Part shown: in pieces, positions 9,351 to 37,096 of the stretch | Numbering within the stretch: position 1 is the first letter of the stretch | How the letters are laid out: every line of letters begins with the position of its first letter | Assembly (NCBI RefSeq): GCF_001424345.1 | Contig: NZ_LMPF01000026.1 | Coordinates: 478-64,477 of the forward strand | Origin: Burkholderia sp. Leaf177 | Lineage (GTDB): Bacteria > Pseudomonadota > Gammaproteobacteria > Burkholderiales > Burkholderiaceae | Reading direction: 5' to 3' | DNA: 64,000 nucleotides | Program-made: the position numbers and the translations under genes | The notes under the pieces: generated by a model | What the model was told of the DNA's origin: nothing | Databases searched by the model: none | Seen by the model: the letters and a program-made list of their open reading frames with translations, nothing else

Positions 9351-9368
9351 GCTAAGCGAAGGATAAGA

Positions 9369-9604: not shown

Positions 9605-9626
9605 CGATCCGTTCTGAAGCACCGAC

Positions 9627-10688: not shown

Positions 10689-10720
10689 CTCGTTCGATTC
10701 ATTCACTGGAGAACAGGAAG

Positions 10721-11221: not shown

Positions 11222-11269
11222 TCTCGCGCGCCTGGATCTCAATCAATCAGTAAGCCACGAGGACCGATC

Positions 11270-12787
11270 ATGGCAGATGCCAGCGACAACATGCAACAAC
11301 AGACGATCAACCCACAAGAGACGCAGACAACCGAGGCGGACGCGTCCGGCGACTTTGGGCGCCTCTTGCAAAAGGCGTTCAAGCCGCGCACGGATAAAGC
11401 CAAGGAAGCAGTGGAAACCGCGGTCCGCACGCTCGCGGAACAAGTGCTGCAAGACACGCATCTCGTATCAGACGACGCGCTTGCGACTATCGAATCGCTG
11501 ATTGCGAAGATCGATGAAAAGCTCAGCGCGCAAGTGAACGTGATCCTGCATACCGAGCAGTTTCAGCAACTCGAAAGCGCGTGGCGCGGTCTGCATTATC
11601 TGGTGACGAACACCGAAAGCGACGAGACGCTCAAGCTGCGCGTGCTGAACATATCGAAGAACGACTTGCATCGTTCGTTGCGCAAATACAAGGGCGTGGC
11701 GTGGGATCAGAGTCCGCTCTTTAAGAAGCTCTATGAAGAAGAGTACGGGCAGTTTGGTGGCGAGCCTTATGGTGCGCTAGTGGCAGATTATTACTTCGAC
11801 AACAGCGGCCCCGACGTCGATTTCCTCACGCAGATGGGCAAGATATCGGCGGCGGCGCATGCACCGTTTATCGCGGGTGCCGACCCGGCGGTGATGTTGA
11901 TGGACTCATGGCAGGAGCTCGCCAACCCGCGCGACCTGACCAAGATATTCCAGACGCCGGAGCACGCCGCATGGCGCTCGCTGCGCGACTCCGAAGATTC
12001 ACGTTATATCGGCCTGGCCATGCCGCGGTTCCTCGCTCGCACGCCTTATGGCGCAAAGACGAGCCCGGTCGAAGAGTTCGACTTCGAGGAAGATACGGTC
12101 GGCGCGGATGCATCAAAATACGCTTGGGCAAATGCAGCCTACGCAATGGCTGTGAATATCAATCGTTCGTTCAAGACCTACGGATGGTGCTCGCGGATTC
12201 GCGGCATTGAGTCGGGTGGCGCGGTCGAGAATCTGCCGGTTCATGCATTCCCGACCGATGACGGCGGTGTCGACATGAAGTGCCCGACCGAAATCGCAAT
12301 CAGCGATCGTCGTGAAGCTGAACTTGCCAAGAACGGTTTCATGCCGCTCGTGCACAAGAAGAACTCGGACTTTGCCGCGTTCATTGGTGCGCAATCTTTG
12401 AACAAGCCGGTCGAATACGAAGATCCGGATGCAACCGCTAACGCGAACCTCGCAGCGCGCTTGCCATATCTGTTTGCTTGCAGCCGCTTTGCGCACTACT
12501 TGAAATGCATCGCACGCGACAAGGTCGGCAGTTTCAAGGAGAAGGACGATATGCAGCGATGGCTGCAGGACTGGATTCTTCAGTACGTGGATGGCGATCC
12601 CGAGAACTCGTCGGAGTTGACCAAGGCGCGCCGTCCGCTTGCCGCTGCCGAGGTGGTCGTGGAAGAAGTGGAAGGTAATCCGGGCTACTACACCTCGAAG
12701 TTCTTCTTGCGTCCGCATTATCAACTCGAAGGTCTTACCGTTTCATTGCGCCTTGTCTCGAAGTTGCCGACAGCCAAGGCCGCGTAG
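11270..12787 (+). CDS. tssC: TssC contractile sheath large subunit
   Basis: TssC (VipB) is the large sheath subunit, recycled by ClpV after contraction. The 505-residue protein has the conserved ESAWRGLHYLV block (near residue 105), FKKLYEEEYGQFGGEPYGALV, the long central domain with PRFLARTPYG, and the C-terminal gp18-like part with QRWLQDWILQYV and FFLRPHYQLEGLTVSLRLVS. Size and motif order are standard. It lies 48 bases after tssB and before hcp. Confidence 0.97.
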   Translation: MADASDNMQQQTINPQETQTTEADASGDFGRLLQKAFKPRTDKAKEAVETAVRTLAEQVLQDTHLVSDDALATIESLIAKIDEKLSAQVNVILHTEQFQQLESAWRGLHYLVTNTESDETLKLRVLNISKNDLHRSLRKYKGVAWDQSPLFKKLYEEEYGQFGGEPYGALVADYYFDNSGPDVDFLTQMGKISAAAHAPFIAGADPAVMLMDSWQELANPRDLTKIFQTPEHAAWRSLRDSEDSRYIGLAMPRFLARTPYGAKTSPVEEFDFEEDTVGADASKYAWANAAYAMAVNINRSFKTYGWCSRIRGIESGGAVENLPVHAFPTDDGGVDMKCPTEIAISDRREAELAKNGFMPLVHKKNSDFAAFIGAQSLNKPVEYEDPDATANANLAARLPYLFACSRFAHYLKCIARDKVGSFKEKDDMQRWLQDWILQYVDGDPENSSELTKARRPLAAAEVVVEEVEGNPGYYTSKFFLRPHYQLEGLTVSLRLVSKLPTAKAA

Positions 12788-21364: not shown

Positions 21365-22813
21365 ATGTCATTGAATGATGCCAACACAGCAAGACTCGGG
21401 CTGACGCTGAGCGGTGGCGACATGAGCACGCCGCGGAACATCGAACTCGATGCAACCGGCGGCACGCTCGGCCGCGCGCCCGAGTGCACCGTGGTGCTGC
21501 CCGATACGCAACGTGCAATCTCGCGCGTGCAGGCACGTATTGAATGGCGCGACGGGTCGTTCGTGTTGATCGATTCAGGCAGCAATCCGACTGTGCTGAA
21601 CGATCAGATTCTCGATGGTTCGCGCGAGGCGCAACTTCACGATAAAAACCGTTTGCGCATCGGACCGTATTCGCTCGTTGTATCCATCGAGCAGGATATG
21701 CAGAACATGACCATGATGACGCGTCCGGATGTGCCGGCGCCGTCCGCGCCTTCGCCGGAAAAGCCGGACTGGGACGTGAAACCCGTCGCGCCGCTGATTC
21801 CTGACGACTGGAATGCGCCGCACGAGGCATCGAGAGAGAGCCGCGCAGACACACCGTTCATGCCCGATCCGCTCGCGGCTACGCCGCTCCTGCGCGAACC
21901 TGCGCGATTCGGTGTGAACGCAAATCAGGAACTGATCGATGCGCTGGGTGCGTCCGAACGTCCGCTCGGCTTTGGTCCGGCCAGACCGGATGCGTCTTCA
22001 TTCATGGTATCGGGATCGAGCAAGGGTTTCGAGCATGTATCGCCGGAACGCGCGATGTCCTCGGTCCCTGCATTGCCGCCGTTGGATGAACCAATGGCTG
22101 CAATCCTGCCCGAGGACTTCGATCCGTTTATCCCGCCGATGGAAATGCAGGAGCCCGATGCGCCGCTGCCTGAGCCGAAGCCCGCTGCGCCCATCGCCGA
22201 CCGCAATGGCAACGACAGCGCCACGCTCGCTGCGCTTCTCGAAGGCCTCGGCATCGACGCCAGCACCGTCCGCCACATTCCCGCGCCCGACCTCGCGCGT
22301 CTGGTCGGCGGCATGTTGCGCGTGGCGACGCAAGGCACCATGACCGCACTGCGTTCCCGCTCGATGGCCAAGCGCGAGACGCGCATTGCAATGACGTTGA
22401 TCGAAGAGCGCGACAACAATCCGCTCAAGTTTTTCCCCGACGTTGACATGGCGCTCACTCAAATGCTCGGTGCGCGCGGCGCAGGTTATCTCGCGCCCGA
22501 AGACGCGCTGCAAGAAGCTTTCCACGATATCCAGGCGCACGAACTTGCGGTCGTCGCAGGCATGCGCGCGGCGCTCGAACACGCAATGTCGCGGATCGAT
22601 CCCGTGACCATCGACAAATCGGTGGAACCGGCGAAGGGTCTCGACGGACTGCTAAGCAATCGCCGCGCACGCCTCTGGCAGCGTTTCGTCGATACATGGG
22701 AGCACGTTGCGCGCGATGCCGGCGACGACTTCCAGCGCACCTTTGGAGAACCCTTTAGCCGCGCGTATCAGGCGCAGCTCGACGCGCTCACGCGTTCAAC
22801 CCCAAGCGAATAA
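21365..22813 (+). CDS. tagH: FHA-domain T6SS protein (TagH/Fha)
   Basis: The 482-residue protein has an N-terminal forkhead-associated domain (about residues 20-100) with the GRAPECTVVLPD strand, the conserved S-R of RAISRVQARIE and NPTVLNDQ. A long acidic and proline-rich linker follows (about 115-290). The C-terminal T6SS-FHA domain contains IPAPDLARLVGGMLRVATQG, KFFPDVDMALTQML and QRTFGEPFSRAYQ. FHA domains bind phosphothreonine, and in Pseudomonas aeruginosa the equivalent Fha1 is phosphorylated by PpkA to switch on the H1-T6SS. A PpkA-like kinase gene lies at the far end of this locus. It follows vgrG by nine bases with AAGGAG upstream of the ATG. Confidence 0.93.
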   Translation: MSLNDANTARLGLTLSGGDMSTPRNIELDATGGTLGRAPECTVVLPDTQRAISRVQARIEWRDGSFVLIDSGSNPTVLNDQILDGSREAQLHDKNRLRIGPYSLVVSIEQDMQNMTMMTRPDVPAPSAPSPEKPDWDVKPVAPLIPDDWNAPHEASRESRADTPFMPDPLAATPLLREPARFGVNANQELIDALGASERPLGFGPARPDASSFMVSGSSKGFEHVSPERAMSSVPALPPLDEPMAAILPEDFDPFIPPMEMQEPDAPLPEPKPAAPIADRNGNDSATLAALLEGLGIDASTVRHIPAPDLARLVGGMLRVATQGTMTALRSRSMAKRETRIAMTLIEERDNNPLKFFPDVDMALTQMLGARGAGYLAPEDALQEAFHDIQAHELAVVAGMRAALEHAMSRIDPVTIDKSVEPAKGLDGLLSNRRARLWQRFVDTWEHVARDAGDDFQRTFGEPFSRAYQAQLDALTRSTPSE

Positions 22814-24167: not shown

Positions 24168-25496
24168 ATGACTAACGAAACAGATCCGGCCGTCGACGAT
24201 TCGGGTTTCCTCGACGCCGCGCGCACGATCATGATGCCCACGCCCGGCCTCAAGCGCGAACGCCCGGCCACGCTGAAATCCGCAGCAGCGGCGCCTGCGT
24301 TGGCGCCGCTCGATGCCACGCTCGCCGGCCGCAACCCGCTGTTGCGCGCCGCGAACCCGTTGCTCGAACTCGCGTTGCCGTTGCGCCGCCTGACGAGCCA
24401 CCCGGACCTCGAAGCATTGCGTACGCAGCTGATCCAGATGGTGCGCACATTCGAAACCAATGGCCGCGCGTTCGGCGTGCCCGACGCGCAACTCGGTCCG
24501 GCGCGCTATTGCCTGTGCACGTTTATCGATGAATCGATTGCCGCCACACCGTGGGGCGCGGGCGTATGGGGCCGCCGCAGTCTGCTCGTGACGTTCCACA
24601 ACGAAGCATCGGGCGGCGAACGTTTGTTCGTGATCCTGCAACGTCTTGCACAAACACCGGCTATCGATGTCGATCTGCTCGAACTGATCTACGTGATGCT
24701 CGCACTCGGTTTCGACGGACGATATCGCCTGATCGAAGGCGGCAAGACGCAACTCGACGTGATCCGCGAACGCCTCGAACAAATGATTCGCGCGCAGCGT
24801 GCGCCCGTCGAGCGTGCGTTGTCGCCGCATTGGCAGCCGGCTCCGCGTGAACGCAAGCGCTTGCTGCAATTCGTGCCGCTGTGGGTCGCGCTTGCGCTCG
24901 CCGCGTTCGTGCTCGTTACCGCGAGCCTGATATTGAGCTTCCGGATCAATGACTTTTCCGATCCGGTATTTGCATCCATGCGGTCGATACGCGTGGCGCC
25001 CGCGCCCGTGCTGGCATCGAAGGTCGATGCAGCGCCCAAACTCGCCGCCACGCTCGCCGGTTTCCTCGCGCCGGAAATCGCGCAAGGCCTGGTCACGGTC
25101 GGCGATTCCGCGGATCGCACCACCGTCACCATCAACAACACGGCGACGGGCACGCAATTGTTTGCATCGGGCAGCGCCGATCTCGATCCGCATTTCGCGC
25201 CGTTGATGCAGCGCATTGCGGATGCATTGCAGGACAAGCCGGGCAATGTCGTGGTGATCGGCCATACCGACAACCAGCGCATCATCTCGGCGCGGTTTCC
25301 GTCGAACGTGGCGCTCTCGCAGGCACGCGCCGACACCGTGCGCGCCATCATCGCCGCGCGGATCAACTCGCCGGCCCGTCTGAGTTCGGAAGGGCGGGGC
25401 GATACCGAACCGATCGCATCGAACGATACCCCTGCCGGCCGCGCGAAAAATCGTCGCGTCGCCATCGTGATTCTCTCGCCAGGAGCCGCGTCATGA
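24168..25496 (+). CDS. tssL: TssL with C-terminal OmpA peptidoglycan-binding domain
   Basis: TssL (DotU/IcmH) is the inner-membrane partner of TssM. The 442-residue protein has the cytoplasmic DotU domain at about residues 60-215 (NPLLELALPLRRL, ARYCLCTFIDESIAATPWG, VILQRLAQTP, LELIYVMLALGFDGRYR). One transmembrane helix follows at about 235-257, then a periplasmic OmpA-like domain at about 320-435 (LFASGSADLDP, VVVIGHTDNQ, SNVALSQARADTV, GRAKNRRVAIVI). This is the evolved type of TssL that can bind peptidoglycan itself. The stop overlaps the tssM start (ATGA). The peptidoglycan domain is relevant because tssJ is absent from this cluster. Confidence 0.95.
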   Translation: MTNETDPAVDDSGFLDAARTIMMPTPGLKRERPATLKSAAAAPALAPLDATLAGRNPLLRAANPLLELALPLRRLTSHPDLEALRTQLIQMVRTFETNGRAFGVPDAQLGPARYCLCTFIDESIAATPWGAGVWGRRSLLVTFHNEASGGERLFVILQRLAQTPAIDVDLLELIYVMLALGFDGRYRLIEGGKTQLDVIRERLEQMIRAQRAPVERALSPHWQPAPRERKRLLQFVPLWVALALAAFVLVTASLILSFRINDFSDPVFASMRSIRVAPAPVLASKVDAAPKLAATLAGFLAPEIAQGLVTVGDSADRTTVTINNTATGTQLFASGSADLDPHFAPLMQRIADALQDKPGNVVVIGHTDNQRIISARFPSNVALSQARADTVRAIIAARINSPARLSSEGRGDTEPIASNDTPAGRAKNRRVAIVILSPGAAS

Positions 25497-28400
25497 GATG
25501 GTTAAGCGGATTCAGAAAGCCGGTCGTCGTGTCGTTCTTCGGCGTGATGGCGCTGGGGTTCATCGTGTGGTTCGAGGGACCGTTGCTTGCGTTCAACAGC
25601 AGTGCGCCGCTAGGCAGTGCAACAAGCCGATGGATCGTGATCGCGCTGCTGTTCGCCGGCTGGGCGGTGTATTTCGGTTCGCGTGCTTTGAAGGCGCGGC
25701 TTGCGAGTTCCAGCTTTGTGCGCAGCCTGATTGCGGATTCGGTGAACCCGGCGAATCGCGAACCGAGCGAAGCGCGCAAGGCCGCCGATGCCGATCTTTC
25801 CATCCTGCGCACGCGCTTCGAAGAAGCGTTGAAGACTTTGCGCAGCACGCCAACCGGTAAAGACAGCAAAGGCTGGAAGTCGTGGTTCGGCGCGCGCCGC
25901 CAGACCATTTACGACTTGCCCTGGTACATGTTTGTCGGTGCGCCGGGCGCCGGGAAGACCACGGCGCTGGTTCATTCCGGTCTGCGTTTTCCTTTGGCGG
26001 ATCGTTTAGGCTCGCAAGCCATTGGCGGCGTGGGCGGCACGCGTCATTGCGACTGGTGGTTCACTGACGACGCCGTTCTCCTCGACACCGCCGGCCGCTT
26101 TACCACGCAAGACAGCCACGCCGAAGCGGATCGCGGCGCATGGCTCGGCTTCCTCGCGATGTTGCGGAAGTATCGTCCGCGCCGACCGCTCAACGGCGTG
26201 ATGGTGGTGGTATCGGCGGCGGATTTGTTGCAGCAGACCGACGCCCAGCGCTCGGCGCATGCGGCGTCGGTTCGTGAACGCCTGAGCGAGTTGAACAAGC
26301 AGCTCGGCATGCGTTTTCCCGTGTACGTAGTGGTCACGAAGAGCGACATGCTTTCGGGCTTTTCCGAATTTTTCGATGACCTCGGCCGCGACGAACGCGA
26401 GCAAGTCTGGGGCATGACCTTCCCGCATTCGCCCGACGACGAGACGGAAAACGCGGAGCAACCGCTGCAGCGTTTCCCCGATGAATTCCGTCTGCTGCAT
26501 CGGCAACTTCAGGATCGGGTGTTGCAACGCATGCAGCAGGAAACCGATGTGCGGCGTCGCGCGCTGATTTATTCCTTCCCGCAGCAATTTGCGGGTATAG
26601 AAGGGTCGTTGCAGCGTTTTCTCGACGATGCGTTCAGCGAATCGCGCTTTGATCGCGCTGCGTTGTTGCGCGGCGTGTACTTCACGAGCGGCACGCAAAG
26701 CGGCCGTCCGCTGGATCGCATGATGAGTTCCATGGCGGCGGCGCTCGGCTTGCAACGCGAAGTGCTGCTCGCCGATACATCGAGTGGACGCGCGTATTTC
26801 GTGAAGCGTCTGCTCCGCGATGTGATCTTCGAGGAAGCCGGTCTTGCGGGCAGCAACCCGCGTGTAGAGCGGCGGCGCGCGCGGTTCCAGCAGATTGCCA
26901 TCGGCGTGGTCGGCGCGGTGCTGATCGCGGGATTGATCGGCCTTTTCGTGAGCGATCGCGCGAACCGCCGCTTCGTTGAAGAAAGCCGGCAGCAGATCGC
27001 CGCGCTTCAGCAACGCGTGCAGCAAACCACGCTGGGTGACGATCCGCTCGCCGTTCTTCCCGTACTCGATGCAGCCCGTGATCTTCCCGGCGGCGAAGCC
27101 GAACGCGAAAGCGGCGGCGATGTCTGGTGGGCGAAGCTCGGTCTCGATCAACGCGAGAAGCTCGGTGCCGAAGCACAGCGTGTCTATCAGCGTTTGCTGC
27201 GCCAGACGTTGTTGCCTATCGTTGTGCAGCGCATGGAAGAGGAGTTGCGCAGGGGCGACGCCAACAATGCCGCGCTTCAATACGAAGTGCTGCGCGCGTA
27301 CCTGATGCTCGGCGACCCGACGCATTACGATCCCGACGCGCTGAGAAACTGGGCCATGCGTGACTGGCAACGCGGTCCGCTGAAGACGGCAAGCGACGCA
27401 CAACGCGCGAGTATCGACCAGCATCTCGAAGCGCTGTTCCGTCGTGGACAGTTCGATTCAAACCTGCCGCTCGACCAGAACCTGATCGCCCAGGCGCGCT
27501 CCACATTGAGCCGCGTGCCGCTTGCGCAACGCCTGAACAGCCGCATCCAGCAACAGCTTACGCAGTTGCATCTCGCGGATTTTTCCATCGCCAAGGCCGC
27601 GGGGCCGAGTGGTCTGCTCGTGTTCGTGCGCAAGAGCGGGACGCCGTTGACGCAGGGTATCGACGGCGCTTATACGCAAGCCGGCTTCACCGCGTTCCTG
27701 CGTTTGCGCGAGATGACGCTCGCCAATATCGCGAAAGACGACTGGGTGCTGGGGCGCGCGGAGACGAAGCCGGATGCTGCGGGTATCGATGACCTTCGCA
27801 CGGCGCTGACGCGTTTGTATTGCGAGGAAAGCATCCGGCAATGGGACGGTCTGCTTGGCGATGTCGGCGTCGTGCCGTTTTCCGCGCCTGACCAGGGCGC
27901 ACGCGTGGCGAACCTGATGGGCTCGCAGAATTCGCCGTTGCGCGCGCTGATTGAGGCGGCATCGAATGAGACTACGTTCGTTGCGCCTGTTTCGAACGCG
28001 GACGCTTCCACCGGCAAATTCGATGCATTGCGCAAGAGCCTCGGTAGTTCAGCCGCGCAACCCGCTGCCACCGCCGACAGCGCCGCGCTCGTCAACGCGC
28101 ATTTCCAGTCGCTGCATGATCTCGCGGGCAAGCCGGGAGCGACGTCGGGTGCGCCTATCGACGATTCCATTGGTGCATTGAAGGAAGCTGCCGCCACGCT
28201 GCAAGCGGTCGATTCCGCGCGCAAACAATCGCTGCCCTTGCCGCCCACGAGTTCGCTCGACCGTCTCAAGCTGCTCGCGCAAGGCGCGCCCGCGCCGCTA
28301 GGTTCGGTGCTGCAAGGCGTCGCCGATAACGCCGATACCGTGCAAGTCCAGAGCCAGCGCGCGCAGCTTCGCGCGCTGTGGGCGTCGACGGTTGCGCCGG

Positions 28401-29050
28401 CCTGCAGGCAAGCGCTCGACGGCCGCTATCCGCTGGTGCGAACCTCAACACGTGACGCCGCGCCGGATGATTTCGGGCGCATTCTCGGGCCGGGCGGTTT
28501 GATCGATGACTTCTTCCAGAAGAACCTGCAGAACCGCGTGGATACGTCGGGCGCCGTGTGGCGCTGGCGGCCCGAAGCGCGCTCGCTCGGCATACCCGAT
28601 GACGTCCTCGCGCAGTTTCAGAACGCCGCGCAGATTCGCGATGCGTTGTTTCGCGACGGCGGCCATGATGTATCGGTGCGATTTTCGGCGAAGCTCGCGT
28701 CCATCGATCCATCCGTCAAACGTTTCGTACTCGATATAGACGGTCTGCAACTGGTCGCAACGGACAGCACGCCGGGCGCAACCGCCGCCTTCCAATGGCC
28801 GAGCGGCAAGGGCACGGGACAGGCGCATGTTGAACTCGATCCGGCATCATCGAGTGCGCCGCACGCGGACGGTCCGTGGGCCTTGTTTCATCTTCTCGAT
28901 ACCGCCCGGATCGCGCCCGCCGGTCAGCCTGATCATTTCAAAGCGGCGTTCGGCGGCGGCCTGGTCTCCGTCGATCTCACCGCGAGCAGCGTGGTCAATC
29001 CGTTTCGCGCGGGCGTGCTCGATCGCTTCCGCTGCCCGGCGCAACTATGA
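25493..29050 (+). CDS. tssM: TssM (IcmF), T6SS cluster 2
   Basis: TssM spans the inner membrane and periplasm of the T6SS channel. The protein has 1185 residues. Two N-terminal transmembrane helices lie at about 10-28 and 47-63. The cytoplasmic NTPase domain has Walker A GAPGAGKTT at 149-157 and DTAGRF shortly after. A third transmembrane helix lies around 465-485 (IGVVGAVLIAGLIGLFV). The large periplasmic part ends in the conserved C-terminal domain (GPWALFHLLDTARI, FKAAFGGGLVSVDL, FRAGVLDRFRCP). The ATG at 25493 overlaps the tssL stop, and the stop overlaps tagF (ATGA). The Walker motif is intact, so ATP binding is plausible. Confidence 0.96.
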   Translation: MRWLSGFRKPVVVSFFGVMALGFIVWFEGPLLAFNSSAPLGSATSRWIVIALLFAGWAVYFGSRALKARLASSSFVRSLIADSVNPANREPSEARKAADADLSILRTRFEEALKTLRSTPTGKDSKGWKSWFGARRQTIYDLPWYMFVGAPGAGKTTALVHSGLRFPLADRLGSQAIGGVGGTRHCDWWFTDDAVLLDTAGRFTTQDSHAEADRGAWLGFLAMLRKYRPRRPLNGVMVVVSAADLLQQTDAQRSAHAASVRERLSELNKQLGMRFPVYVVVTKSDMLSGFSEFFDDLGRDEREQVWGMTFPHSPDDETENAEQPLQRFPDEFRLLHRQLQDRVLQRMQQETDVRRRALIYSFPQQFAGIEGSLQRFLDDAFSESRFDRAALLRGVYFTSGTQSGRPLDRMMSSMAAALGLQREVLLADTSSGRAYFVKRLLRDVIFEEAGLAGSNPRVERRRARFQQIAIGVVGAVLIAGLIGLFVSDRANRRFVEESRQQIAALQQRVQQTTLGDDPLAVLPVLDAARDLPGGEAERESGGDVWWAKLGLDQREKLGAEAQRVYQRLLRQTLLPIVVQRMEEELRRGDANNAALQYEVLRAYLMLGDPTHYDPDALRNWAMRDWQRGPLKTASDAQRASIDQHLEALFRRGQFDSNLPLDQNLIAQARSTLSRVPLAQRLNSRIQQQLTQLHLADFSIAKAAGPSGLLVFVRKSGTPLTQGIDGAYTQAGFTAFLRLREMTLANIAKDDWVLGRAETKPDAAGIDDLRTALTRLYCEESIRQWDGLLGDVGVVPFSAPDQGARVANLMGSQNSPLRALIEAASNETTFVAPVSNADASTGKFDALRKSLGSSAAQPAATADSAALVNAHFQSLHDLAGKPGATSGAPIDDSIGALKEAAATLQAVDSARKQSLPLPPTSSLDRLKLLAQGAPAPLGSVLQGVADNADTVQVQSQRAQLRALWASTVAPACRQALDGRYPLVRTSTRDAAPDDFGRILGPGGLIDDFFQKNLQNRVDTSGAVWRWRPEARSLGIPDDVLAQFQNAAQIRDALFRDGGHDVSVRFSAKLASIDPSVKRFVLDIDGLQLVATDSTPGATAAFQWPSGKGTGQAHVELDPASSSAPHADGPWALFHLLDTARIAPAGQPDHFKAAFGGGLVSVDLTASSVVNPFRAGVLDRFRCPAQL

Positions 29051-29631
29051 CCACGCTTGGAGAGACCTGCACGGGCTTCTACGGAAAAGTGCGCACGCAT
29101 GGCGATTTCGTGGGACGGGGTTTATCGCATGAGTTTGTCGTGCAATGGGACGCGTGGCTGCAACGCGGTTTGCTAACGGCTCAACACCATCTCGGCGATG
29201 CATGGCTGCAAGACTTTCTCGGCATGCCGTTATGGTGCTTCGCGATGAAACCGGGCGTGATCGATGACGCCGCATATGCAGGCGTGTTGATGCCCGGGAT
29301 CGATGCGGTCGGGCGCTATTTTCCGTTCGTGGTCGCGCGGTCGATGGATCGGGCGGTCTTGGGCGAATGGCTGCGTAGCAGTCCGGTCTGGTACGAACAT
29401 GCAGCGGGTCTCGCGTTATCGACGTTGAAGGCGAAGTTCTCGCTGACGGAGTTCGAGTCGGAACTGGAGCACCTCGATAGCGATGCTGAAACGCTCGTCT
29501 GGCGCGATACGTTCAGGCAGTTCTTGAGCGAAAGCGATGCGGCGAGCGTGTGGTGGACGAGCGCGCAAGTGCTGCACAAGCACGAAGGTGCGCTCAATAC
29601 AGCGTTGTTCCTGCGGTTGCTGGAAGGCTAA
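29047..29631 (+). CDS. tagF: TagF, T6SS accessory protein
   Basis: TagF (DUF2094) is a cytoplasmic post-translational repressor of the T6SS in Pseudomonas aeruginosa and Agrobacterium, acting through Fha. The 194-residue protein has the family pattern GFYGKVRTHGDFVGRGL, QWDAWLQRGLLTAQ, PLWCFAMKPGVI and GVLMPGIDAVGRYFPFVV. It starts at the ATG at 29047, overlapping the tssM stop, and is the last gene of the operon. It ends one base from the convergent kinase gene. TagF is not fused here to a PppA phosphatase, and no separate pppA gene is seen in the window. Confidence 0.93.
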   Translation: MTTLGETCTGFYGKVRTHGDFVGRGLSHEFVVQWDAWLQRGLLTAQHHLGDAWLQDFLGMPLWCFAMKPGVIDDAAYAGVLMPGIDAVGRYFPFVVARSMDRAVLGEWLRSSPVWYEHAAGLALSTLKAKFSLTEFESELEHLDSDAETLVWRDTFRQFLSESDAASVWWTSAQVLHKHEGALNTALFLRLLEG

Positions 29632-29632: not shown

Positions 29633-31024
29633 TTAATTAGGCGCGATACCAAGATCCCGCCGCAACGCATTGCCGTCTTTCGCGTCCTGCACGGACGCAA
29701 TCAAACGTTCGTAGAACGTATCGACGTCTGGCACGTTCGCGGCGGCGCGCGCCACGATAACCCGTGCTATCGGCCCGACATAGGCGGCGAGTTTCAGCGT
29801 TGCGTCCTGCAGCACGTCGGGTTCGATACTCGCGGGCGTTGCAGTCCGTCCGATACTCGATGAAACCCGCGAGCCATTCCCCGGCGTTTCCAGACGCATC
29901 AAAAGCGAATTGAAATCGCGCCGTGCGGCATCGGTCGGAAAATGCGCGGCGAGCCGCTCGCGCAATGCGTTGAAGTCCGAAGCCCTGGCCGTGGCACGTC
30001 GCAGCAGGATCGTCGCGACCGGCCCCACGTGACTCGCCAGCCGCTCCTCCAGTTGCGCGATCAACTCGGGCGGCCATTCCATTGAAGGCTCGGCGAGTTC
30101 GGGCGCTTCCAGCAACGCAACCGGCTTCGCAAACGCAATGACGGTCTGATCGCTGTCGCTGGATTGAGCGGCGCCGAGCGCGCCCAGCAGCACGTCGCGC
30201 CATTCGCGCGCGGAGTTATATCGATCCCCGGGCCGCTTCGAAAGCGCTTTCATCAACATCGCATCGGTGAAAGCCGGCAAGCCCGGTGCGCGCTCCGATG
30301 GCAGCATAGGCGTGTCGCTCAGCACTTGCCGCATGACGGCGGTCGGGGTGCCGGCGAACGGACATACGCCCGTCAGCATTTCATACAGCACGACCGCGGC
30401 GGAAAAAAGATCGGCGCGCGCATCGATGGTCTCACCCGTGAACTGTTCCGGCGACATGTAGCTGGGCGTGCCGATCACCGTGCCCAGTTGCGTGAGATGC
30501 GACGCTTCAATCCGCGCAATGCCGAAGTCCGTGATCTTGCATTCGCCGCGCTGCGTGATCAGCAAATTTGCCGGCTTGATATCGCGATGAATCACACCCT
30601 CATGATGCGCGTAGTCGAGTGCATCGAGTAGTTGCACAAAGCAACCCAAAGCACGCGCCGGTTCAATGCGAGTCTGAGCGCGGGCATGTTGCGCGAGACG
30701 CGCGGCGAGACTTTCTCCGCGCACATATTCCATCGTGATGTACGCCGTGTCTCCCGCCTCGCCGTAATCATGAACCGACACAATATTCGGATGCGCAAGA
30801 CGCCCGGCCGCCCGCGCTTCGTTCAGAAAACGCGCGGTCAGGTCGTGCATCGACTCGCCGTCGGAACCTGCCGGCAACAACTCGTTGCGGATGGTTTTAA
30901 GCGCGACATGGCGCTCGATCTGCGGATCGAACGCGAGATACACCACGCCCATCGCGCCACGTCCGAGCACGCGCTCGATGCGGTATCGGCCGAGTTCAGT
31001 CGGGGTATCGGCGGATGCGGTCAT
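29633..31024 (-). CDS. PpkA-like cytoplasmic Ser/Thr kinase, T6SS-linked
   Basis: A Hanks-type kinase of 463 residues. The glycine loop GRGAMG is at 21-26, the ATP lysine K43 is in HVALKTIR, and the helix-C glutamate is E69. The catalytic loop HRDIKPAN is at 146-153, DFG at 166-168, and SPEQF in the activation segment, so all key catalytic residues are present. The C-terminal 140 residues contain two copies of a helical motif: LASHVGPVATILLRRA (329-344) and LAAYVGPIARVIVARA (412-427), each followed by a similar DFNALRERLA- or DTFYERLIAS-like segment. These resemble the DUF8082 domain. There is no transmembrane helix or von Willebrand domain, unlike PpkA of Pseudomonas aeruginosa. It is the last gene of a minus-strand operon after the haem sensor (two-base gap). 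The FHA protein of the adjacent operon is a likely substrate (inference). Confidence 0.88.
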   Translation of the reverse strand: MTASADTPTELGRYRIERVLGRGAMGVVYLAFDPQIERHVALKTIRNELLPAGSDGESMHDLTARFLNEARAAGRLAHPNIVSVHDYGEAGDTAYITMEYVRGESLAARLAQHARAQTRIEPARALGCFVQLLDALDYAHHEGVIHRDIKPANLLITQRGECKITDFGIARIEASHLTQLGTVIGTPSYMSPEQFTGETIDARADLFSAAVVLYEMLTGVCPFAGTPTAVMRQVLSDTPMLPSERAPGLPAFTDAMLMKALSKRPGDRYNSAREWRDVLLGALGAAQSSDSDQTVIAFAKPVALLEAPELAEPSMEWPPELIAQLEERLASHVGPVATILLRRATARASDFNALRERLAAHFPTDAARRDFNSLLMRLETPGNGSRVSSSIGRTATPASIEPDVLQDATLKLAAYVGPIARVIVARAAANVPDVDTFYERLIASVQDAKDGNALRRDLGIAPN

Positions 31025-31026
31025 GA

Positions 31027-31920
31027 TCAGTTCGCGCTTTCATCGAGGATCTTGAACGCCTCGATCAAGCTCGTCCGCATGCGTCCAAACGATACCGCCA
31101 GTGACGCAATCTCATCCGATCCACCCGTTGGCAGCGGCGTTTCGGCGAGCTTGCCGAGACTCATTTCATCGGCGGCGCGCGAGAGCGACTGAATGGGCCG
31201 CGTGATCAGCAGGTTCACCATCACGTTCATCACGATCAGCACCACCGCGAACACCGCGGTGAGCGACAGCATGAACGTGCGCCACACGGCGCGTCCGCGT
31301 TCTATGGGTTGCGTCATCGGCACCGATACAAACTCCGCGCCGATCACGTCGTTCATGGCCCAGCCGAAACCGTTCGCCGAGCCATATTTATCGATCATGG
31401 TGGCGGGCGCCGCGCTCGGCGTGCTGTGGCATTGCATGCACGCCACGTCCGTGATGCGGCTCGGCCGCGCGAGGAACAAGGTCGGGTTGCCGGATGAAAC
31501 GCGCTGGCCGGTCATCTGCTTCAGGTCGGGGTGATCGTGCAGATGCGTGATCACGTCCGTTTCCCAATCCGTCGGCCGGTCGCGGGGATTGGTCGGATTG
31601 AGCATGGTCGACTTGTACGAGAAGTTCGGAAAATCCTTTTGCAGCAGGTTCAGCATTTCGATGGCCGAGAACGCCGGAATGGATTCGGGCACGAACTGGT
31701 ATTTGATCTGCGTGGCGAGCAGCGGCGTGACGTGGGTCGCGGTGTAGCTTTGCATCGACGCAGCCGCGCTGATGAGCACGTTCGCGTCGTGGACGGTTTC
31801 ATCGAGCGCCTGCTTTTGCAACAAACGGTCTGCGACCACACCCGCCGCGCTCAGGCCGATGGCGAAGACGATCAGGAAGACGAGGTTGAACTTGGCGCTA
31901 AGAGAGAGTTTGCGTTTCAT
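31027..31920 (-). CDS. Membrane-bound c-type haem sensor (DUF3365-like) with HAMP, no output domain
   Basis: The 297-residue protein starts at the ATG at 31920, whose codon overlaps the upstream stop (ATGA). Transmembrane helix 1 spans about 11-30. A periplasmic region of about 180 residues resembles the DUF3365/Tll0287 sensor fold, and it contains one CXXCH haem-c motif, CMQCH at 161-165. Transmembrane helix 2 spans about 215-239. A HAMP domain (about 240-290) begins with the RPIQSLSRAADEMS segment. The protein stops there: no histidine kinase, cyclase or methyl-accepting domain follows. Two bases downstream the PpkA-like kinase begins. I infer that the kinase, or a partner acting through it, supplies the missing output. 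Proteins with this periplasmic fold sense redox state or small gases. Confidence 0.85.
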   Translation of the reverse strand: MKRKLSLSAKFNLVFLIVFAIGLSAAGVVADRLLQKQALDETVHDANVLISAAASMQSYTATHVTPLLATQIKYQFVPESIPAFSAIEMLNLLQKDFPNFSYKSTMLNPTNPRDRPTDWETDVITHLHDHPDLKQMTGQRVSSGNPTLFLARPSRITDVACMQCHSTPSAAPATMIDKYGSANGFGWAMNDVIGAEFVSVPMTQPIERGRAVWRTFMLSLTAVFAVVLIVMNVMVNLLITRPIQSLSRAADEMSLGKLAETPLPTGGSDEIASLAVSFGRMRTSLIEAFKILDESAN

Positions 31921-32861
31921 GGGTGTTGATACAGTGAGTTCGCGGGCAGCGCGGAGGTGTTGACGCGAAGGCTTTGCAACGCGCGTTGGCGGGCATCGGG
32001 ATGCGGCGCGGGCGGATAGAGCAGGACGCGCCACTCGGGCAGCGCCTTGAGGTTTTGATCGATGGCGCGGCGAAACGCGGGGTCGCTCAGGCGCGGCCGG
32101 AAGCGCGCGGGGAAGCGCTTGCGCGCAGGCAGGTCGCTTGTGAGCCACGCGGAGACATCGTCGTAGCTTGCGGCGCGCAGCGGTTTTATCGCGTGGTCGT
32201 GTGCGGCTGGCGTAACCGGCACACGTTGCAATGCATCGCGAAAAGCGACGGGCATGTCGGCGAGAAACGCGCTCGACGGACGCTGCGCAATTTGCGGCGG
32301 CGTGTTTGCGATTGCATATGCAAAGCTGCCTGGTGCGACCGCGTTTCGGTGCGCTGAAGCGGCCAACGTTTGCGTGCCGCTTTCGCTGAAGACGGCGACG
32401 GTCGACTTGCTTCCTTCGGCGCCAGGAAGTGCCGCGATGACCGCCGCTGAGTTCGCTCCAAGTTCGAGAGCGCCTCGTTCTGTATCGATGACTGTCGCTG
32501 CGCACGGCTGCGTTGCGCACGTCTGCGCGACCTTCAGCCAGCCATCGAGCAGCGACACGCGCGTTCCTGCCTGGAGCAGCACGCGCGTCTGTGCGCCGAG
32601 CGCGAGCAGGCGGCCGGCATCGTCCTGAAGCTGCACCACGCTGCGTGGCGCGGATTCGATCAGGTCATCGTCGCGCAACGCTTCGCCCGCGCCTAGTTGA
32701 TAGACGTTCGTCGCGCGAATCACGGTTGCCGGGGCGTCGGCGGCGGCTATCGTCCAGCCGGCGTGAGCTTGCGATACCGCGAACAGAAAGCCGAACGCGA
32801 GCACGAGGCGCAACCTGCGCGAGAGCAACAGAAACAGGGCGTATAGGCGGCGATATCTCAT
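31917..32861 (-). CDS. Exported FecR-like domain protein
   Basis: The 314-residue protein has an N-terminal signal peptide (basic start, hydrophobic stretch to about residue 30, likely cleavage after AHA at 34). A FecR-like beta-rich domain spans about 40-150, with LGAGEALRDDDLIESAPRSV and VLLQAGTRVSLLDGWLKV, and the domain holds one Cys pair (CATQPC). A less conserved Pro/Arg-rich C-terminal region of about 150 residues has no recognised fold. FecR proteins usually pass signals to ECF sigma factors, but this one has no cytoplasmic anti-sigma part, so it is a periplasmic domain only. Its stop overlaps the haem-sensor start, so these genes are translationally coupled. The real role is unknown; ligand or peptidoglycan sensing next to the haem sensor is a guess. 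Confidence 0.75.
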   Translation of the reverse strand: MRYRRLYALFLLLSRRLRLVLAFGFLFAVSQAHAGWTIAAADAPATVIRATNVYQLGAGEALRDDDLIESAPRSVVQLQDDAGRLLALGAQTRVLLQAGTRVSLLDGWLKVAQTCATQPCAATVIDTERGALELGANSAAVIAALPGAEGSKSTVAVFSESGTQTLAASAHRNAVAPGSFAYAIANTPPQIAQRPSSAFLADMPVAFRDALQRVPVTPAAHDHAIKPLRAASYDDVSAWLTSDLPARKRFPARFRPRLSDPAFRRAIDQNLKALPEWRVLLYPPAPHPDARQRALQSLRVNTSALPANSLYQHP

Positions 32862-32949
32862 GCGTTTCGCTGTGCGTTAATGCGCCGCGAGCCAGGAAAT
32901 GGCCGGCGCATTAAACACAACAGCGAAGCGATGAAATTATTCCGCGCGG

Positions 32950-33927
32950 CTAGAAAACGGAGCGGGAATTGAACGGGACTTTAACCGATGCCAGCAGCGC
33001 AGCGTTTGGCGCGCGAGAGTCGTCGCGGCTGAAAAGCGGCGCGACCTGGCTGCTGGAAATCTGCTTGCCGAGCGTGGTCAGATCGACGCCTTGCGGCTGC
33101 CCGATCAACGCATAACCGAGTTCGGCCTGGCGCCAGGTGACCACGGTCATCGATGCAACCTTCTGATCCGCCACCGGCGCATCCGGCTTGACCTCTTTCA
33201 TCACGCACAGCGCAATGGGCGCGCCTTCCTTCGGCAAGTACACAATCTGCACGAGCGGCTTGTTGTTGAAGCGCAGCCGCTGCACGCGCTTGAACGTCAG
33301 CCCCGCCGCGCTCAAGTCCGGAATGCGCAGCGCAAGGCCATCGTCCTGGCGGATTTCGTTGACGGTCTTGATGGAGAGGTCCGTGTCGCTATTGACGTTG
33401 GCAACCGTGTCGCGCGAATAGAGTTGCTGGTAGCTGGCCGCGGCCGTGATCCACGGCGACACGCCCGTTCCCACCGATGCAATCGATGCCCCCACATTCG
33501 ATGCCGGCCCCGCGCCGGGTCCGAGCCGCAGTACGAGGCCGCATGCGAATGCGCCGCCGAGGAACGCAACAGCGAGCCACGCCGGGGCTACGCGCAGCCG
33601 TGAACGAATGGTCGATGCCACCGGACTTCCGGGCGCGCGTTCTACCACTGGATCATTGACGCCCACATTGGGATGGGCGGTTTGATTTTCGGCCTTGAGC
33701 TTGGCCGCTCGCGCCATTTCCTCGATCTTCGCCGTGAGGCTGGCGGGAACGGGCGGCAGCTTCTGCCCGGCAAAAGCATCGCGATAAGGCAGCCGCGAAG
33801 CCTGCAGAAGCGCAACGCGCTCGGCCACGTCGGGAGAGGTGCGCAGTTCGCGCTCCACTTCCTCGCGTTCGTGCAACGGCAGTTCGCCGTCCACGTAGGC
33901 CATCAGCAGGATATCGTCCGATTTCAT
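32950..33927 (-). CDS. Anti-sigma factor, paralogue 2
   Basis: The 325-residue membrane protein starts MKSDDILLMAYVDGELP, the usual opening of anti-sigma factors, and has an N-terminal anti-sigma helical domain to about residue 75. The zinc-binding HX3CX2C motif is absent. One transmembrane helix lies near 117-135 (WLAVAFLGGAFACGLVL). The periplasmic part contains LYSRDTVANVN, GLALRIPDLSAAGLTFKRVQ, FNNKPLVQIVYLPKEG and VVTWRQAELGYALIGQP. It is a clear paralogue of the anti-sigma factor at 34443-35333, matching over nearly the whole length, with an extra C-terminal tail. It is separated from that gene by about 515 bases and may have its own promoter. It has no dedicated sigma gene next to it. 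Confidence 0.85.
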   Translation of the reverse strand: MKSDDILLMAYVDGELPLHEREEVERELRTSPDVAERVALLQASRLPYRDAFAGQKLPPVPASLTAKIEEMARAAKLKAENQTAHPNVGVNDPVVERAPGSPVASTIRSRLRVAPAWLAVAFLGGAFACGLVLRLGPGAGPASNVGASIASVGTGVSPWITAAASYQQLYSRDTVANVNSDTDLSIKTVNEIRQDDGLALRIPDLSAAGLTFKRVQRLRFNNKPLVQIVYLPKEGAPIALCVMKEVKPDAPVADQKVASMTVVTWRQAELGYALIGQPQGVDLTTLGKQISSSQVAPLFSRDDSRAPNAALLASVKVPFNSRSVF

Positions 33928-34442
33928 AAGACTTAAGCAGTGTGCTTTCGCTGATGATTTATGTTCTTGTTTCTCTCTTGGCTTAATTGCATTCCATCTA
34001 TGAATAGAGCAATTCGATTTGGAATGGCAATCGACCTTCGAGGACCCTACTGCTTCGTCACAGTTTCTCTAATGGCTTATTTATAAACAAGCCGTCACCG
34101 CTATACAACCAGCATAACCACCCGTTGTGCTTGCGACAACGCTCGGCGAGGAGCATGCCGGGGGTTTTTGACCGCGTTGTTTTCCCAAACGACGCATCAA
34201 AGTTATACCGGTCCTAAATGAAGAACACCTGGGTTTGCAGCAAAATTCCATGCACGCGCGATTAATCTCAAACGCCTGGAACTCAACGTGGTTTGGACTC
34301 AAGCCGCAGCTGTAACAAGTGTAACTGTGATTTGGTGCAGATGCTTAATCGTTGTTTCGTGCAAACCACACGTTATGTGTTGAGGTGGATCACATAAGAC
34401 GGCGCCGCGGAATGGACGCACGGCGCGTGAAAATCGCAAGAG
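33928..34442. other. 515-base spacer between paralogous anti-sigma genes
   Basis: This stretch is relatively AT-rich for the window and no convincing gene is seen. A 73-codon minus-strand frame at 34081-34302 lacks a ribosome-binding site and recognisable features. A sigma-70-like promoter for the downstream anti-sigma gene may lie at 34001-34030. The remainder shows no other element I can support. Confidence 0.5.
34001..34030 (-). promoter_or_regulatory. Possible promoter for anti-sigma paralogue 2
   Basis: On the minus strand TTGCCA (34030-34025) and TATTCA (34006-34001) are separated by 18 bases and resemble -35 and -10 boxes, about 75 bases upstream of the ATG at 33927. This would let the second anti-sigma gene be expressed apart from the sigma factor operon. 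Confidence 0.35.
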
Positions 34443-35333
34443 TCAAGCAGCCAATGGTTCCGGCTGCATTACGGAAGTTGCATCGCTGAAAAGTTGATCC
34501 ACTTCGCGATTCGAGATCTGCTTGCCGACCGCATTCAGATCCACGCCGTCGGGCTTGCCGATCAGCGCGTAGCTAAGCTCGGCCTGACGCCACGTGACCA
34601 CGCGCATGGAATCGACGTCCTGACCCGCTACCGCCTGATCCGGTTTCACGTCTTTCATCACGCACAGCGCGACAGGTTCGCCTTTTTCCGGCTGATACAC
34701 GATCTGCACGAGCGGCTTGTTGTTGAAACGCAGGCGCTGCACCGTCTTGAACGTCAGACCCGCGTTGCGCAAATCCGGAATGCGTAACGCAAGACCGTCT
34801 TCGCGGCGGATGTCATCGACCGTTTTCGACGATGTTCCCTGCGTCTCGCTCACATAGGCCAGCGTGTCGCGTGTATAGAGTTTTTGATAGCCCGTTGCGG
34901 CTTGCACCCATGGCGAAAGGTTGCTTGAAGCCATCGAACCAGATGCACCATGGTCGAGCAAAGGCCCGAGCCGCAGGAACAATCCGCCGCAGAACGCGCC
35001 GGCCACGCATGCCGCCGCGAGCCACGCCGGAACCGAGCGCATGCGCGAGCGAACGGGAACGTTGGCCGGCGCCGGCACAGCACTGTCGTTGACGGCGGAA
35101 GGAGCGGCATGCGCCCGAGCCATCGCTTCAATTTTCTGCGTCAGTGAATCCGGTACAGGCGGCAAATTTTGCGTGGCGAACGCGCCCTGATAATCCACAC
35201 GCGATGCCTTCAGCAGTTCGACCAGCTCGGCGGCTTCGGCCGACGTCCGTATGTGTTCCTCGACTTCATGGCGCTGGTCGGGCGGCAGTTCACCGTCCAC
35301 ATACGCCATTAACGTAATTTCATCGGTTTTCAT
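34443..35333 (-). CDS. Anti-sigma factor, partner of the ECF sigma factor
   Basis: The 296-residue protein opens with MKTDEITLMAYVDGELPPDQ and has an N-terminal cytoplasmic anti-sigma domain (to about residue 75) without zinc ligands. A transmembrane helix (about 104-122, WLAAACVAGAFCGGLFL) and a periplasmic domain follow, with GLALRIPDLRNAGLTFKTVQ, FNNKPLVQIVYQPEKG and VVTWRQAELSYALIGKP. Its ATG overlaps the sigma factor stop (ATGA), which is the usual layout for a sigma/anti-sigma pair made at matched levels. The signal it senses is unknown; the upstream peroxidase gene suggests an oxidative signal. A near full-length paralogue follows downstream. Confidence 0.9.
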   Translation of the reverse strand: MKTDEITLMAYVDGELPPDQRHEVEEHIRTSAEAAELVELLKASRVDYQGAFATQNLPPVPDSLTQKIEAMARAHAAPSAVNDSAVPAPANVPVRSRMRSVPAWLAAACVAGAFCGGLFLRLGPLLDHGASGSMASSNLSPWVQAATGYQKLYTRDTLAYVSETQGTSSKTVDDIRREDGLALRIPDLRNAGLTFKTVQRLRFNNKPLVQIVYQPEKGEPVALCVMKDVKPDQAVAGQDVDSMRVVTWRQAELSYALIGKPDGVDLNAVGKQISNREVDQLFSDATSVMQPEPLAA

Positions 35334-35875
35334 GCAATTGAATCCTTTCGCGTCGCCGAGGCTTTTGGCTTCGGTTCTTGCGTGCCGAACTGCGCGCCGA
35401 CGGCTTGCCGTGCACGCGATAAGCGGCTCATGACGGTTCCGATAGGAACCTCGAGTACATCTGCTGCTTCCTGATAACTCAGGCCTTCGACGGCGACCAG
35501 CAGCATGACCACGCGTTGCGCTTCGGGCAGGCGCTCCACGGCGCTGATGATCTGACCGTGCATGAGCTGGGTTTCCGGGCCTTTATCGACGGGATCGGCG
35601 ACGTTTTCCAGGAAGTCGTCGTCCCATTCCATGCTGGAACGTTTGCGCACGCTTCGCGCACGCAACTCGTTGATCCAGGTGGAATGCACGATCGAAAACA
35701 TCCAGCTCAACGGAGCCGTATCGGGCTGCAACTGATGCGCCCGTTCGAGCGCGCGAAGGCACGCGCGCTGGACGAGATCCTCGGCGTCGTGCCGGTCGCC
35801 CGATATGCGCAGCGCGAAGGCCCACAAGCGCGGCAGCATCTCGGGAAGCATGCTTGGTAAGTCTGCACCGTTCAT
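35330..35875 (-). CDS. ECF-type RNA polymerase sigma factor
   Basis: The 181-residue product is an extracytoplasmic-function sigma factor. Region 2 covers about residues 10-80, with ALRISGDRHDAEDLVQRACL and PLSWMFSIVHSTWINELRA. Region 4 covers about 115-165, with LPEAQRVVMLLVAVEGLSYQ and PIGTVMSRLSRARQAV. The frame is open further upstream, but I choose the ATG at 35875 because AGGAG lies 11 bases before it and ECF proteins normally begin just ahead of region 2. The order is peroxidase, sigma, anti-sigma on one strand, with 138 bases between peroxidase and sigma. Autoregulation of the operon is likely but no ECF promoter was identified. Confidence 0.92.
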   Translation of the reverse strand: MNGADLPSMLPEMLPRLWAFALRISGDRHDAEDLVQRACLRALERAHQLQPDTAPLSWMFSIVHSTWINELRARSVRKRSSMEWDDDFLENVADPVDKGPETQLMHGQIISAVERLPEAQRVVMLLVAVEGLSYQEAADVLEVPIGTVMSRLSRARQAVGAQFGTQEPKPKASATRKDSIA

Positions 35876-36013
35876 CGAACGAATATCTCCTGGTACCAGT
35901 GTCTTGTCCGAGTGCTGCTGGCAGCATGCACTTGAGCGCTGCATGAAACGAACCGCGTAGTTTAACGTGAGATCGGACATTTCGCCGCACGCCAGCCGCG
36001 GCTTGGAGCGGGC

Positions 36014-37096
36014 CTAGCGCCGTGTGTTCGCCGCCGCTTCGGCCGTTTGCGCCTCTTCGCGTGTACGACGGTTGAAAGAAACCGCATAAGCCGACGAACG
36101 CGCCGCCAGCAGCGGATCGTCCGATGGCTCGATCCCGGCCGGCAAGATCAGCGGATCGAAATTGATGTCGCGGCAGGCGCCATCGATCTGCGATTCCGCC
36201 TGGTCGATCACCAAAACCCCCGCGTCCACACGATGCAACTCGCGCTCTTCTGGCCAGACGCGCGTGGCGTCGCTCGTCGGATCTCCAGGCGCGGCCGGCG
36301 TGATCATCAGATGCCAGCGCACCGGACCGCGCGCGAGCCGCTTGCTCAGGTCGTGCGCGAGAAAATCCGGATCGCGCGTCATGGTTGCACTGACCGGCTG
36401 GTATGTGGCTTCGGGGACGACGCTCCATCGGACGAACCGCGTGGTGCCTTGGGCGTTGATAAATTTGAACGCGTTGATGCTGAAATAACTGGCGTTATAA
36501 AAGTTCGATGACGCCGGGTGACTCGCCAGCCATTCGTGAAAAGCCCTTGTTTCAGGGTGTTTTTCCAGAAACATCTCCATTTTCGCGGGGTCCACGCGGC
36601 CGCTCGCGGCGTCCGGCCGCAATGCAGCCAATTGCTCATACAGCGCGTCGGGCGTGCTGACGGCGAAGATGGGCACGGAATTCATGGCCGTGCGCCATTG
36701 TTCGCCATCGCTCGATGTAAAGCGCAGCGCGAAGCTGCGGACCATGGCGGTATCGTCTTCTTGCGTGGGGTCGAAACCCGGCGCCGACAGACGCCCGACC
36801 AACGGCACGACGCCCGGCTTGAACACGCTCGCCCGCGAAAGCTGCGCACCATTGCCATTGCTCTCGAAGCGGCCGCTCACGCACACGCCCTTTGCATGAT
36901 TGCGCCTGAAGCCGGGATGCGGACTGGTATCGGCTTCGAATGCATCGATCAGCCGGGCTGGAGTAAGCGCTTGTTGAGTCGGGGCTAAATGAATCCATCC
37001 GCCGGTCCACGCAAACAATCCCGCTATGACGCCAATGGATACGGCAATGATGGCGTAACGGGATATCAGGCTGGAATGGCGGCGCTTTTCAGTCAT
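36014..37096 (-). CDS. Membrane-anchored catalase-family peroxidase (SrpA-like)
   Basis: The 360-residue protein belongs to the small-subunit catalase-like peroxidases that are exported and act as haem peroxidases in the periplasm. A single N-terminal transmembrane helix (about 13-31) gives an anchor or uncleaved signal. The distal histidine is probably H67 in GFRRNHAKGVCVSG, and the proximal haem tyrosine is probably Y337 in SSAYAVSFNRR. Other catalase-fold segments are VRSFALRFTSSDGEQWRTAM and NFYNASYFSINAFKF. It is the first gene of an operon with an ECF sigma factor and anti-sigma factor. The pairing of a catalase-like peroxidase with an ECF sigma factor is seen elsewhere in Proteobacteria; here no cytochrome b561 partner gene is adjacent. 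Confidence 0.88.
   Translation of the reverse strand: MTEKRRHSSLISRYAIIAVSIGVIAGLFAWTGGWIHLAPTQQALTPARLIDAFEADTSPHPGFRRNHAKGVCVSGRFESNGNGAQLSRASVFKPGVVPLVGRLSAPGFDPTQEDDTAMVRSFALRFTSSDGEQWRTAMNSVPIFAVSTPDALYEQLAALRPDAASGRVDPAKMEMFLEKHPETRAFHEWLASHPASSNFYNASYFSINAFKFINAQGTTRFVRWSVVPEATYQPVSATMTRDPDFLAHDLSKRLARGPVRWHLMITPAAPGDPTSDATRVWPEERELHRVDAGVLVIDQAESQIDGACRDINFDPLILPAGIEPSDDPLLAARSSAYAVSFNRRTREEAQTAEAAANTRR

Follow-up and report, generated by a model that had tools for sequence, protein, structure and literature searches.

In a 64,000-nucleotide (nt) stretch of the Burkholderia sp. Leaf177 genome (contig NZ_LMPF01000026.1, positions 478 to 64,477; hereafter the window), three minus-strand genes that adjoin a type VI secretion system (T6SS) cluster encode an exported-looking FecR-like protein (FECR), a membrane haem sensor (SENS) and a soluble Ser/Thr kinase (KIN). 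What is new here is the architecture, in which a haem sensor ends at its HAMP domain and a separate kinase carries a doubled STAC-like domain. The FECR–SENS–KIN triad is T6SS-linked in the Burkholderiaceae, and the sensor–kinase pair is older than its T6SS role. We propose, with moderate confidence, that the three products make up a split transmembrane Ser/Thr kinase that would read haem, most likely its binding of nitric oxide (NO), and control the T6SS through phosphorylation by KIN. These findings suggest a T6SS weapon controlled by nitric oxide or redox state through a two-part switch, and give a testable job to STAC, a little-understood protein domain.

Sensor, kinase and FecR-like protein

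A preliminary description of this DNA placed seven minus-strand genes at 29633–37096, namely a catalase-family peroxidase, an extracytoplasmic function (ECF) sigma factor, two anti-sigma factors, a FecR-like protein, a haem/HAMP sensor and a kinase. All seven were found there, and Pfam and NCBIfam back the identities, that of the FecR-like protein being backed through its ortholog and fold. The last three genes and their parts are as follows (aa, amino acids; TM, transmembrane; HMM, hidden Markov model).

31917–32861, minus strand: FECR, exported-looking, with a FecR/cell-surface-signalling-like β domain (residues ~36–192) and a helical C-terminal domain (AlphaFold, Foldseek, ortholog Pfam)
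31027–31920, minus strand: SENS, 297 aa, with two TM segments, a periplasmic sCache_heme (Tll0287-like) domain and a C-terminal orphan HAMP (PF11845, HAMP, two hydrophobic helices)
31318–31818, minus strand: sCache_heme/PF11845 domain of SENS, aa 35–201 (Pfam)
31426–31440, minus strand: CMQCH haem c attachment motif of SENS, aa 161–165, which holds its only two cysteines
31063–31209, minus strand: orphan HAMP of SENS, aa 238–286, 11 residues short of the C terminus (Pfam)
29633–31024, minus strand: KIN, soluble Ser/Thr kinase, 463 aa, with a C-terminal doubled STAC-like domain (PF00069, 6.9e-50)
30230–30985, minus strand: catalytic domain of KIN, aa 14–265 (Pfam)
29909–30076, minus strand: STAC-like repeat 1 of KIN, aa 317–372, motif HVGPVA (local HMM, alignment, AlphaFold four-helix unit)
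29657–29824, minus strand: STAC-like repeat 2 of KIN, aa 401–456, motif YVGPIA (local HMM, alignment; three helices in the model, with a long first one)

The tight packing described for these genes is present: the FECR stop and the SENS start share an ATGA at 31917–31920, and two bases (31025–31026) separate SENS from KIN. Because the −4 overlap of FECR and SENS is kept in 10 of 13 relatives, and a SENS–KIN spacing of −4 to +16 bp in 12 of 13 (1,464 bp in locus L018), the packing goes beyond chance. The genes had also been said to run into the end of the T6SS operon. They do adjoin it, but not in the same direction: the KIN stop (29633) comes within one base of the tagF stop (29631), which makes the block convergent with the operon.

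SENS matches PF11845 at 2e-34 (119.5 bits against a cut-off of 24.1) and HAMP at 2.1e-10, and the best solved-structure match of its HAMP is that of Af1503. An output domain is absent, HAMP being the end of the protein. The CxxCH motif is invariant in all 20 rows of the SENS alignment and kept in 52 of 54 SENS-like open reading frames (ORFs), 46 of which have at most two cysteines in the matched part; some of these loci may overlap in origin. The exceptions are a shortened ORF in L091 and the ORF in L104 (CATCY). With its TM–HAMP architecture and no axial cysteine, SENS has the layout of the NO-sensor type of sCache_heme protein. The receptor family is a large one: 7,884 of 8,000 candidates scored matched the profile, the best 120 of these all having 289–303 aa. 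L104 (G834:C41, 9647–10747) is a T6SS-linked sensor in which the haem motif is lost but HAMP-like sequence is kept, alongside a kinase with a STAC-like repeat.

KIN has the G-loop, HRD and DFG motifs. The earlier label of a PpkA-like kinase holds in that KIN is a Hanks-type Ser/Thr kinase whose T6SS locus also encodes FHA and TagF. It fails for the shape: KIN lacks the TM segment and periplasmic C-terminal domain of PpkA, and its sole hydrophobic 19-mer peak (residue 206) falls within the kinase domain. KIN is thus not PpkA-shaped, yet may well work like PpkA. We set aside a reading of KIN as an anti-phage kinase; PD-T4-6 models of PADLOC match strongly (best 4.4e-94), mostly over the generic kinase domain, one over residues 11–434.

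The C-terminal domain of KIN is helical, about 57 residues long and doubled. Its best-ranked structural match is STAC (Af1502), no single match being significant and no further STAC-named chain appearing in the match list. The AlphaFold model (pLDDT 81.7, pTM 0.42) has four helices in the first unit (13–27, 30–41, 45–53 and 59–73) and three in the second (96–123, 128–138 and 142–151). Of the LGPx(x)A-type motif, GP is invariant in both repeats (28/28) and A in repeat 2 alone; the motif of repeat 1 lies between modelled helices 13–27 and 30–41.

FECR itself has no Pfam match; its ortholog in L021 matches PF04773 at 5.7e-7. The model of FECR (pLDDT 82) has one helix (2–26) followed by the β domain (36–192) and a helical tail, and the best Foldseek match is the C-terminal cell-surface-signalling domain of PupR (E 5.2e-6, prob 1.00). 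A cytoplasmic N-terminal anti-sigma domain is part of the definition of FecR regulators, and this part is not present in the FECR model. Outside the conserved order, several loci have a different small protein, exported-looking by eye, upstream of SENS; the two tested had no Pfam match. By analogy, our guess is that FECR might have a modulating role like that of RtkS in Serratia, as outlined in the accessible part of PMC10482370.

Conservation of the triad and of the sensor–partner pair

Scanning 150 genomes of the family with FECR gave 14 rows in 13 genomes, one of which (G101; 74-residue match, 9.8e-4) was dropped. SENS has 13 loci in 12 of the 150 genomes, the same loci as FECR (L016 is counted as a locus of G009). 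In 12 of the 13, window included, KIN and tagF/tssM lie next to FECR–SENS, which bears out a check set beforehand, that the triad order should be found at T6SS loci elsewhere. L017, L018 and four plasmid loci add six, all T6SS-linked; the plasmid loci, four of four in the Burkholderiaceae, come from 10 matched records, with H9 and H10 outside the context count. The T6SS neighbour is tssB rather than tagF in Paraburkholderia aromaticivorans, and of 14 fetched relatives, 8 carry a PP2C gene that separates KIN from tagF. Three relatives from the SENS scan are Caballeronia. The triad loci are related and mostly from one genus, and 5 of 15 sampled genomes of that genus lack the sensor.

The remaining locus, L022 (G108:C5:752200-772199; positions 8591–12336), has FECR–SENS but lacks both kinase and T6SS. 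The immediate neighbours of the pair are an EACC1 protein (4.4e-5) and a caspase-fold protein (3.2e-6), neither of them matched by PADLOC, and a conflict-type system may have co-opted this sensor pair.

Beyond the family, the 20-row SENS alignment (threshold 1e-40) matched 25 of 369 genomes of the class. We first fetched 20 contexts, for 28 rows other than that of the window. No T6SS genes were found by tblastn in these 20 loci, and in 19 an ORF with the KIN C-terminal domain lies beside the orphan-HAMP sensor, the coupling expected of STAC; the domain is doubled save in L063 and L066. In 17 loci the partner is a kinase, with a cyclase as well in L060 and L061; in L063 and L066 it is a class III cyclase. 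Pfam was run on part of these ORFs. Searched alone, the domain occurs in 26 of the 369 genomes; 23 have both sensor and domain (Fisher 3.6e-31, not corrected for phylogeny), within about 2 kb of each other in 22. Together with the STAC-like domain itself, this co-occurrence strongly supports the earlier claim that sensor and kinase are directly coupled.

The discordant genomes are covered by contexts L090–L098. In G413 the sensor ORF is shortened (207 aa, no CxxCH) and stands ahead of a cyclase that carries the domain (L091), and in G303 the sensor is broken by a stop and the domain is on an ACT-like protein (L094; ACT match 0.0034). The matches in G236, G439 and G419, on short contigs or near contig ends, are uninformative. 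In G434 (L062, L093), sensor and STAC-kinase are 260 kb apart, which suggests that the pair can work unlinked. Class III cyclases with one or two STAC-like domains stand beside the haem sensor at L063 9406–10260, L066 9347–10156 (by sequence likeness alone), L060 7117–8238, L061 9421–10593 and L091 7939–8796, and an NO-to-cyclic-nucleotide branch through STAC-bearing cyclases is possible.

Among 398 genomes of the phylum, nine match SENS, and the domain is present in three of seven further contexts. L099 has FECR–SENS–KIN with no T6SS within about 9 kb, L100 has the pair with T6SS genes about 3 kb downstream, and L104 has it, with a single repeat, beside tssC/F/G and a PP2C gene. In the other four (L101, L102, L103, L105) the sensor continues into further C-terminal sequence and no STAC-type partner was found. 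The pair lies inside the T6SS operon of Skermanella rosea, in the order tagH-dotU-tssM-tagF-SENS-kinase-tssH. Sensor–kinase pairs are therefore linked to T6SS genes in the Burkholderiaceae and at three loci outside the class of the window (Skermanella, L100 and L104). Rhodovulum has the pair and no T6SS in the stretch examined, and the cyanobacteria Rippkaea (orphan-HAMP sensor) and Kovacikia (526-residue frame) have no partner in the stretches examined.

The upstream module and the T6SS cluster

The genes on either side of the triad are as follows.

36014–37096, minus strand: PEROX, peroxidase of the catalase family with a hydrophobic stretch at the N terminus (PF00199, 1.4e-27)
35330–35980, minus strand: ECF sigma factor (Sigma70_r2, r4_2; NCBIfam)
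34443–35333, minus strand: ASF1, anti-sigma factor (zf-HC2, 1e-6), with an ATGA overlap with the ECF gene
32950–33927, minus strand: ASF2, second anti-sigma paralog (zf-HC2 at just 0.0034, below cut-off; NCBIfam)
32877–32914, minus strand: perfect 11-bp inverted repeat between ASF2 and FECR, 16 nt between arms, no T run
29047–29631, plus strand: tagF (PF09867), convergent with KIN
25493–29050, plus strand: tssM (tblastn alignment over its length to the annotated TssM of Skermanella)
21365–22813, plus strand: T6SS FHA protein (TagH), a putative KIN substrate (PF00498, PF20232)
9627–29631, plus strand: T6SS cluster, tssA to tssM and tagF

Comparison does not support the idea of a single redox-themed block as first put. 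PEROX adjoins the triad in just 5 of 14 fetched relatives; on this count it was dropped from the signalling unit, and it is a clade-specific local addition. Homologues of the anti-sigma factors occur in 37 of the 150 family genomes, 25 of them without the triad; in the 20 of these 25 loci that were fetched, there is a weak T6SS match in one and a peroxidase in two. Among triad genomes, those of the window clade have the ECF/ASF pair next to the triad, whereas those of the second clade have it at the far end of the T6SS cluster (7 of 7 genomes checked, with no peroxidase match in those seven stretches); G139 has a copy on another contig. The pair is at the T6SS locus in 11 of 11 triad genomes counted against 1 of 20 triad-negative ones (Fisher 1.4e-7, the genomes being related). 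It is therefore part of this T6SS locus, though a module of its own.

In EcfK/PknS-type systems the ECF factor is reportedly controlled by the kinase without an anti-sigma factor. As in EcfK/PknS of Xanthomonas, so far as that system is described in the text available to us, an ECF factor and a Ser/Thr kinase are tied to a T6SS here. Unlike there, the ECF gene overlaps its own anti-sigma gene, in a separate module, and on this ground ECF regulation of KIN of that kind was dropped.

ASF1 and ASF2 share 181 identities over 325 columns. The 88-nt gap that divides ASF2 from FECR holds nested inverted repeats (32863–32930), the perfect 11-bp pair lying inside an 11-bp pair at 91%. The 515-bp gap between the anti-sigma paralogs (33928–34442) is well conserved in two close relatives and has no Rfam match, nor does any part of the window at gathering scores. 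Alignments of the upstream regions show blocks conserved among near relatives. A second, partial T6SS operon (VasJ-type TssA, TssF, TssG, TssJ) lies at 694–5862, just upstream of the main cluster and near the contig end. The whole genome has one PF11845 match. One further KIN-like kinase and a single match to the L021 PP2C lie about 16 kb from each other on a different contig.

Proposed mechanism, its rivals and related systems

From the observed order, domains, conservation, co-occurrence and T6SS linkage we infer how the system might work. SENS would be an inner-membrane dimer with covalent periplasmic haem c and an orphan cytoplasmic HAMP, and FECR would be its periplasmic modulator. KIN, a soluble protein, would be tethered in trans to this HAMP by its two STAC-like units; because the sensor stops at HAMP, a STAC-like domain is found on its partner and the two co-occur side by side, KIN most likely docks on SENS HAMP through STAC. 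Binding of a ligand (most likely NO) or a redox change at the haem would shift HAMP, the STAC pair would relay the shift to the kinase, and KIN would phosphorylate T6SS components, the FHA protein first, so that T6SS assembly is licensed or held. The ECF factor with ASF1 and ASF2 would be a second, transcriptional module of the same locus.

The preliminary description had also suggested oxygen or haem as the signal. NO is likelier than O2 or free haem, because a protein of the SENS architecture is reported to bind NO and not O2: Pseudomonas azotoformans WP_033902098, which like SENS has two TM helices, an sCache_heme domain with CxxCH haem, HAMP and no axial cysteine, releases NO with a koff of 6.25e-4 per s and forms no stable O2 complex (PMC12889525, in the portion available). 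The case for NO is drawn from architecture. No partner is described for WP_033902098 in that portion, and the main text contains none of the words ‘operon’, ‘threonine’ and ‘type VI’.

We regard it as unlikely that the split sensor–kinase holds but reads the redox state of its haem (periplasmic redox or peroxide) rather than NO. The sCache_heme family does have redox-type members, and its HAMP-bearing protein autoxidizes about 10 times faster than the stand-alone one; the redox-like members described are, however, stand-alone and Cys-ligated (PMC12889525, same portion), whereas SENS has HAMP and no spare cysteine. PEROX is a neighbour in the window clade, yet 9 of 14 relatives have no peroxidase nearby, one of these also lacking the kinase. 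Our proposal is weakened by the fact that the STAC matches are individually non-significant and that small helical bundles match widely, but the motif, the genomic coupling to an orphan HAMP and the top structural rank all indicate Af1502, and an unrelated helical bundle that docks by other means seems improbable.

One integrated oxidative-stress regulon, in which the ECF factor and peroxidase drive T6SS and triad together, would fit the presence of ECF/anti-sigma genes at the T6SS locus even away from the triad, but is less probable still, given that those seven stretches have no peroxidase, that the inverted-repeat gap parts the modules and that neither inspection by eye nor a sigma-70 scan revealed a promoter motif common to both. 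Least probable, and by our estimate very doubtful, is the reading of KIN as an ordinary PpkA from the threonine phosphorylation pathway, with sensor and FecR-like protein as incidental neighbours. Like the PpkA–PppA–Fha–TagF pathway of P. aeruginosa, Serratia and Acidovorax, the locus has a Ser/Thr kinase next to tagF in an FHA-containing T6SS context, sister loci with a PP2C and, if FECR acts as RtkS does, a periplasmic accessory protein. Against this, sensor and kinase are separate, the sensor has haem, and KIN has neither the membrane nor the periplasmic part of PpkA (layout as in the available part of PMC12607579); moreover, at 19 of 20 loci that have no T6SS the sensor is still accompanied by a partner with the KIN C-terminal domain, which is a kinase in 17. 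The words ‘heme’, ‘haem’ and ‘HAMP’ do not occur in the review PMC10482370, and DUF3365 together with type VI secretion was not found in the open-access literature.

The split kinase that we favour most resembles Af1503/Af1502 of Archaeoglobus fulgidus, an orphan-HAMP receptor with a translationally coupled stand-alone STAC protein (PMC4834066, in the part available). Both have a receptor with HAMP as its only cytosolic part and an adjacent, coupled helical partner with an LGPx(x)A-type motif. In contrast to Af1503/Af1502, the sensor here is a haem c Cache protein, and its partner is a kinase (elsewhere a cyclase or ACT-like protein) to which a doubled STAC-like domain is fused; the system is bacterial and T6SS-linked, whereas the same part of PMC4834066 describes Af1503 loci as enriched in membrane transport. 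How HAMP-ended receptors pass on their signal and what STAC does become two questions testable together. Tentatively, at somewhat less than even chance, we extend the proposal to a large bacterial family of orphan-HAMP haem receptors that would signal in trans through STAC on interchangeable effectors (Ser/Thr kinase, nucleotide cyclase, ACT-like), with STAC as a general receptor–effector coupler and the T6SS under periplasmic NO/redox control via a split kinase. This may supply a partner for the large sCache_heme receptor family and, if true, adds a periplasmic gas or redox input to post-translational T6SS control. A 2026 preprint (PMC13022988), in its accessible text, calls the precise role of STAC unclear. 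In the SLC5–STAC histidine kinases CbrA, CrbS and RpuS, STAC likewise stands between a membrane input and a kinase output, but in cis below a transporter, whereas KIN would place it in trans, beneath a HAMP receptor; the genome of the window has three SSF frames of its own (531–783 aa).

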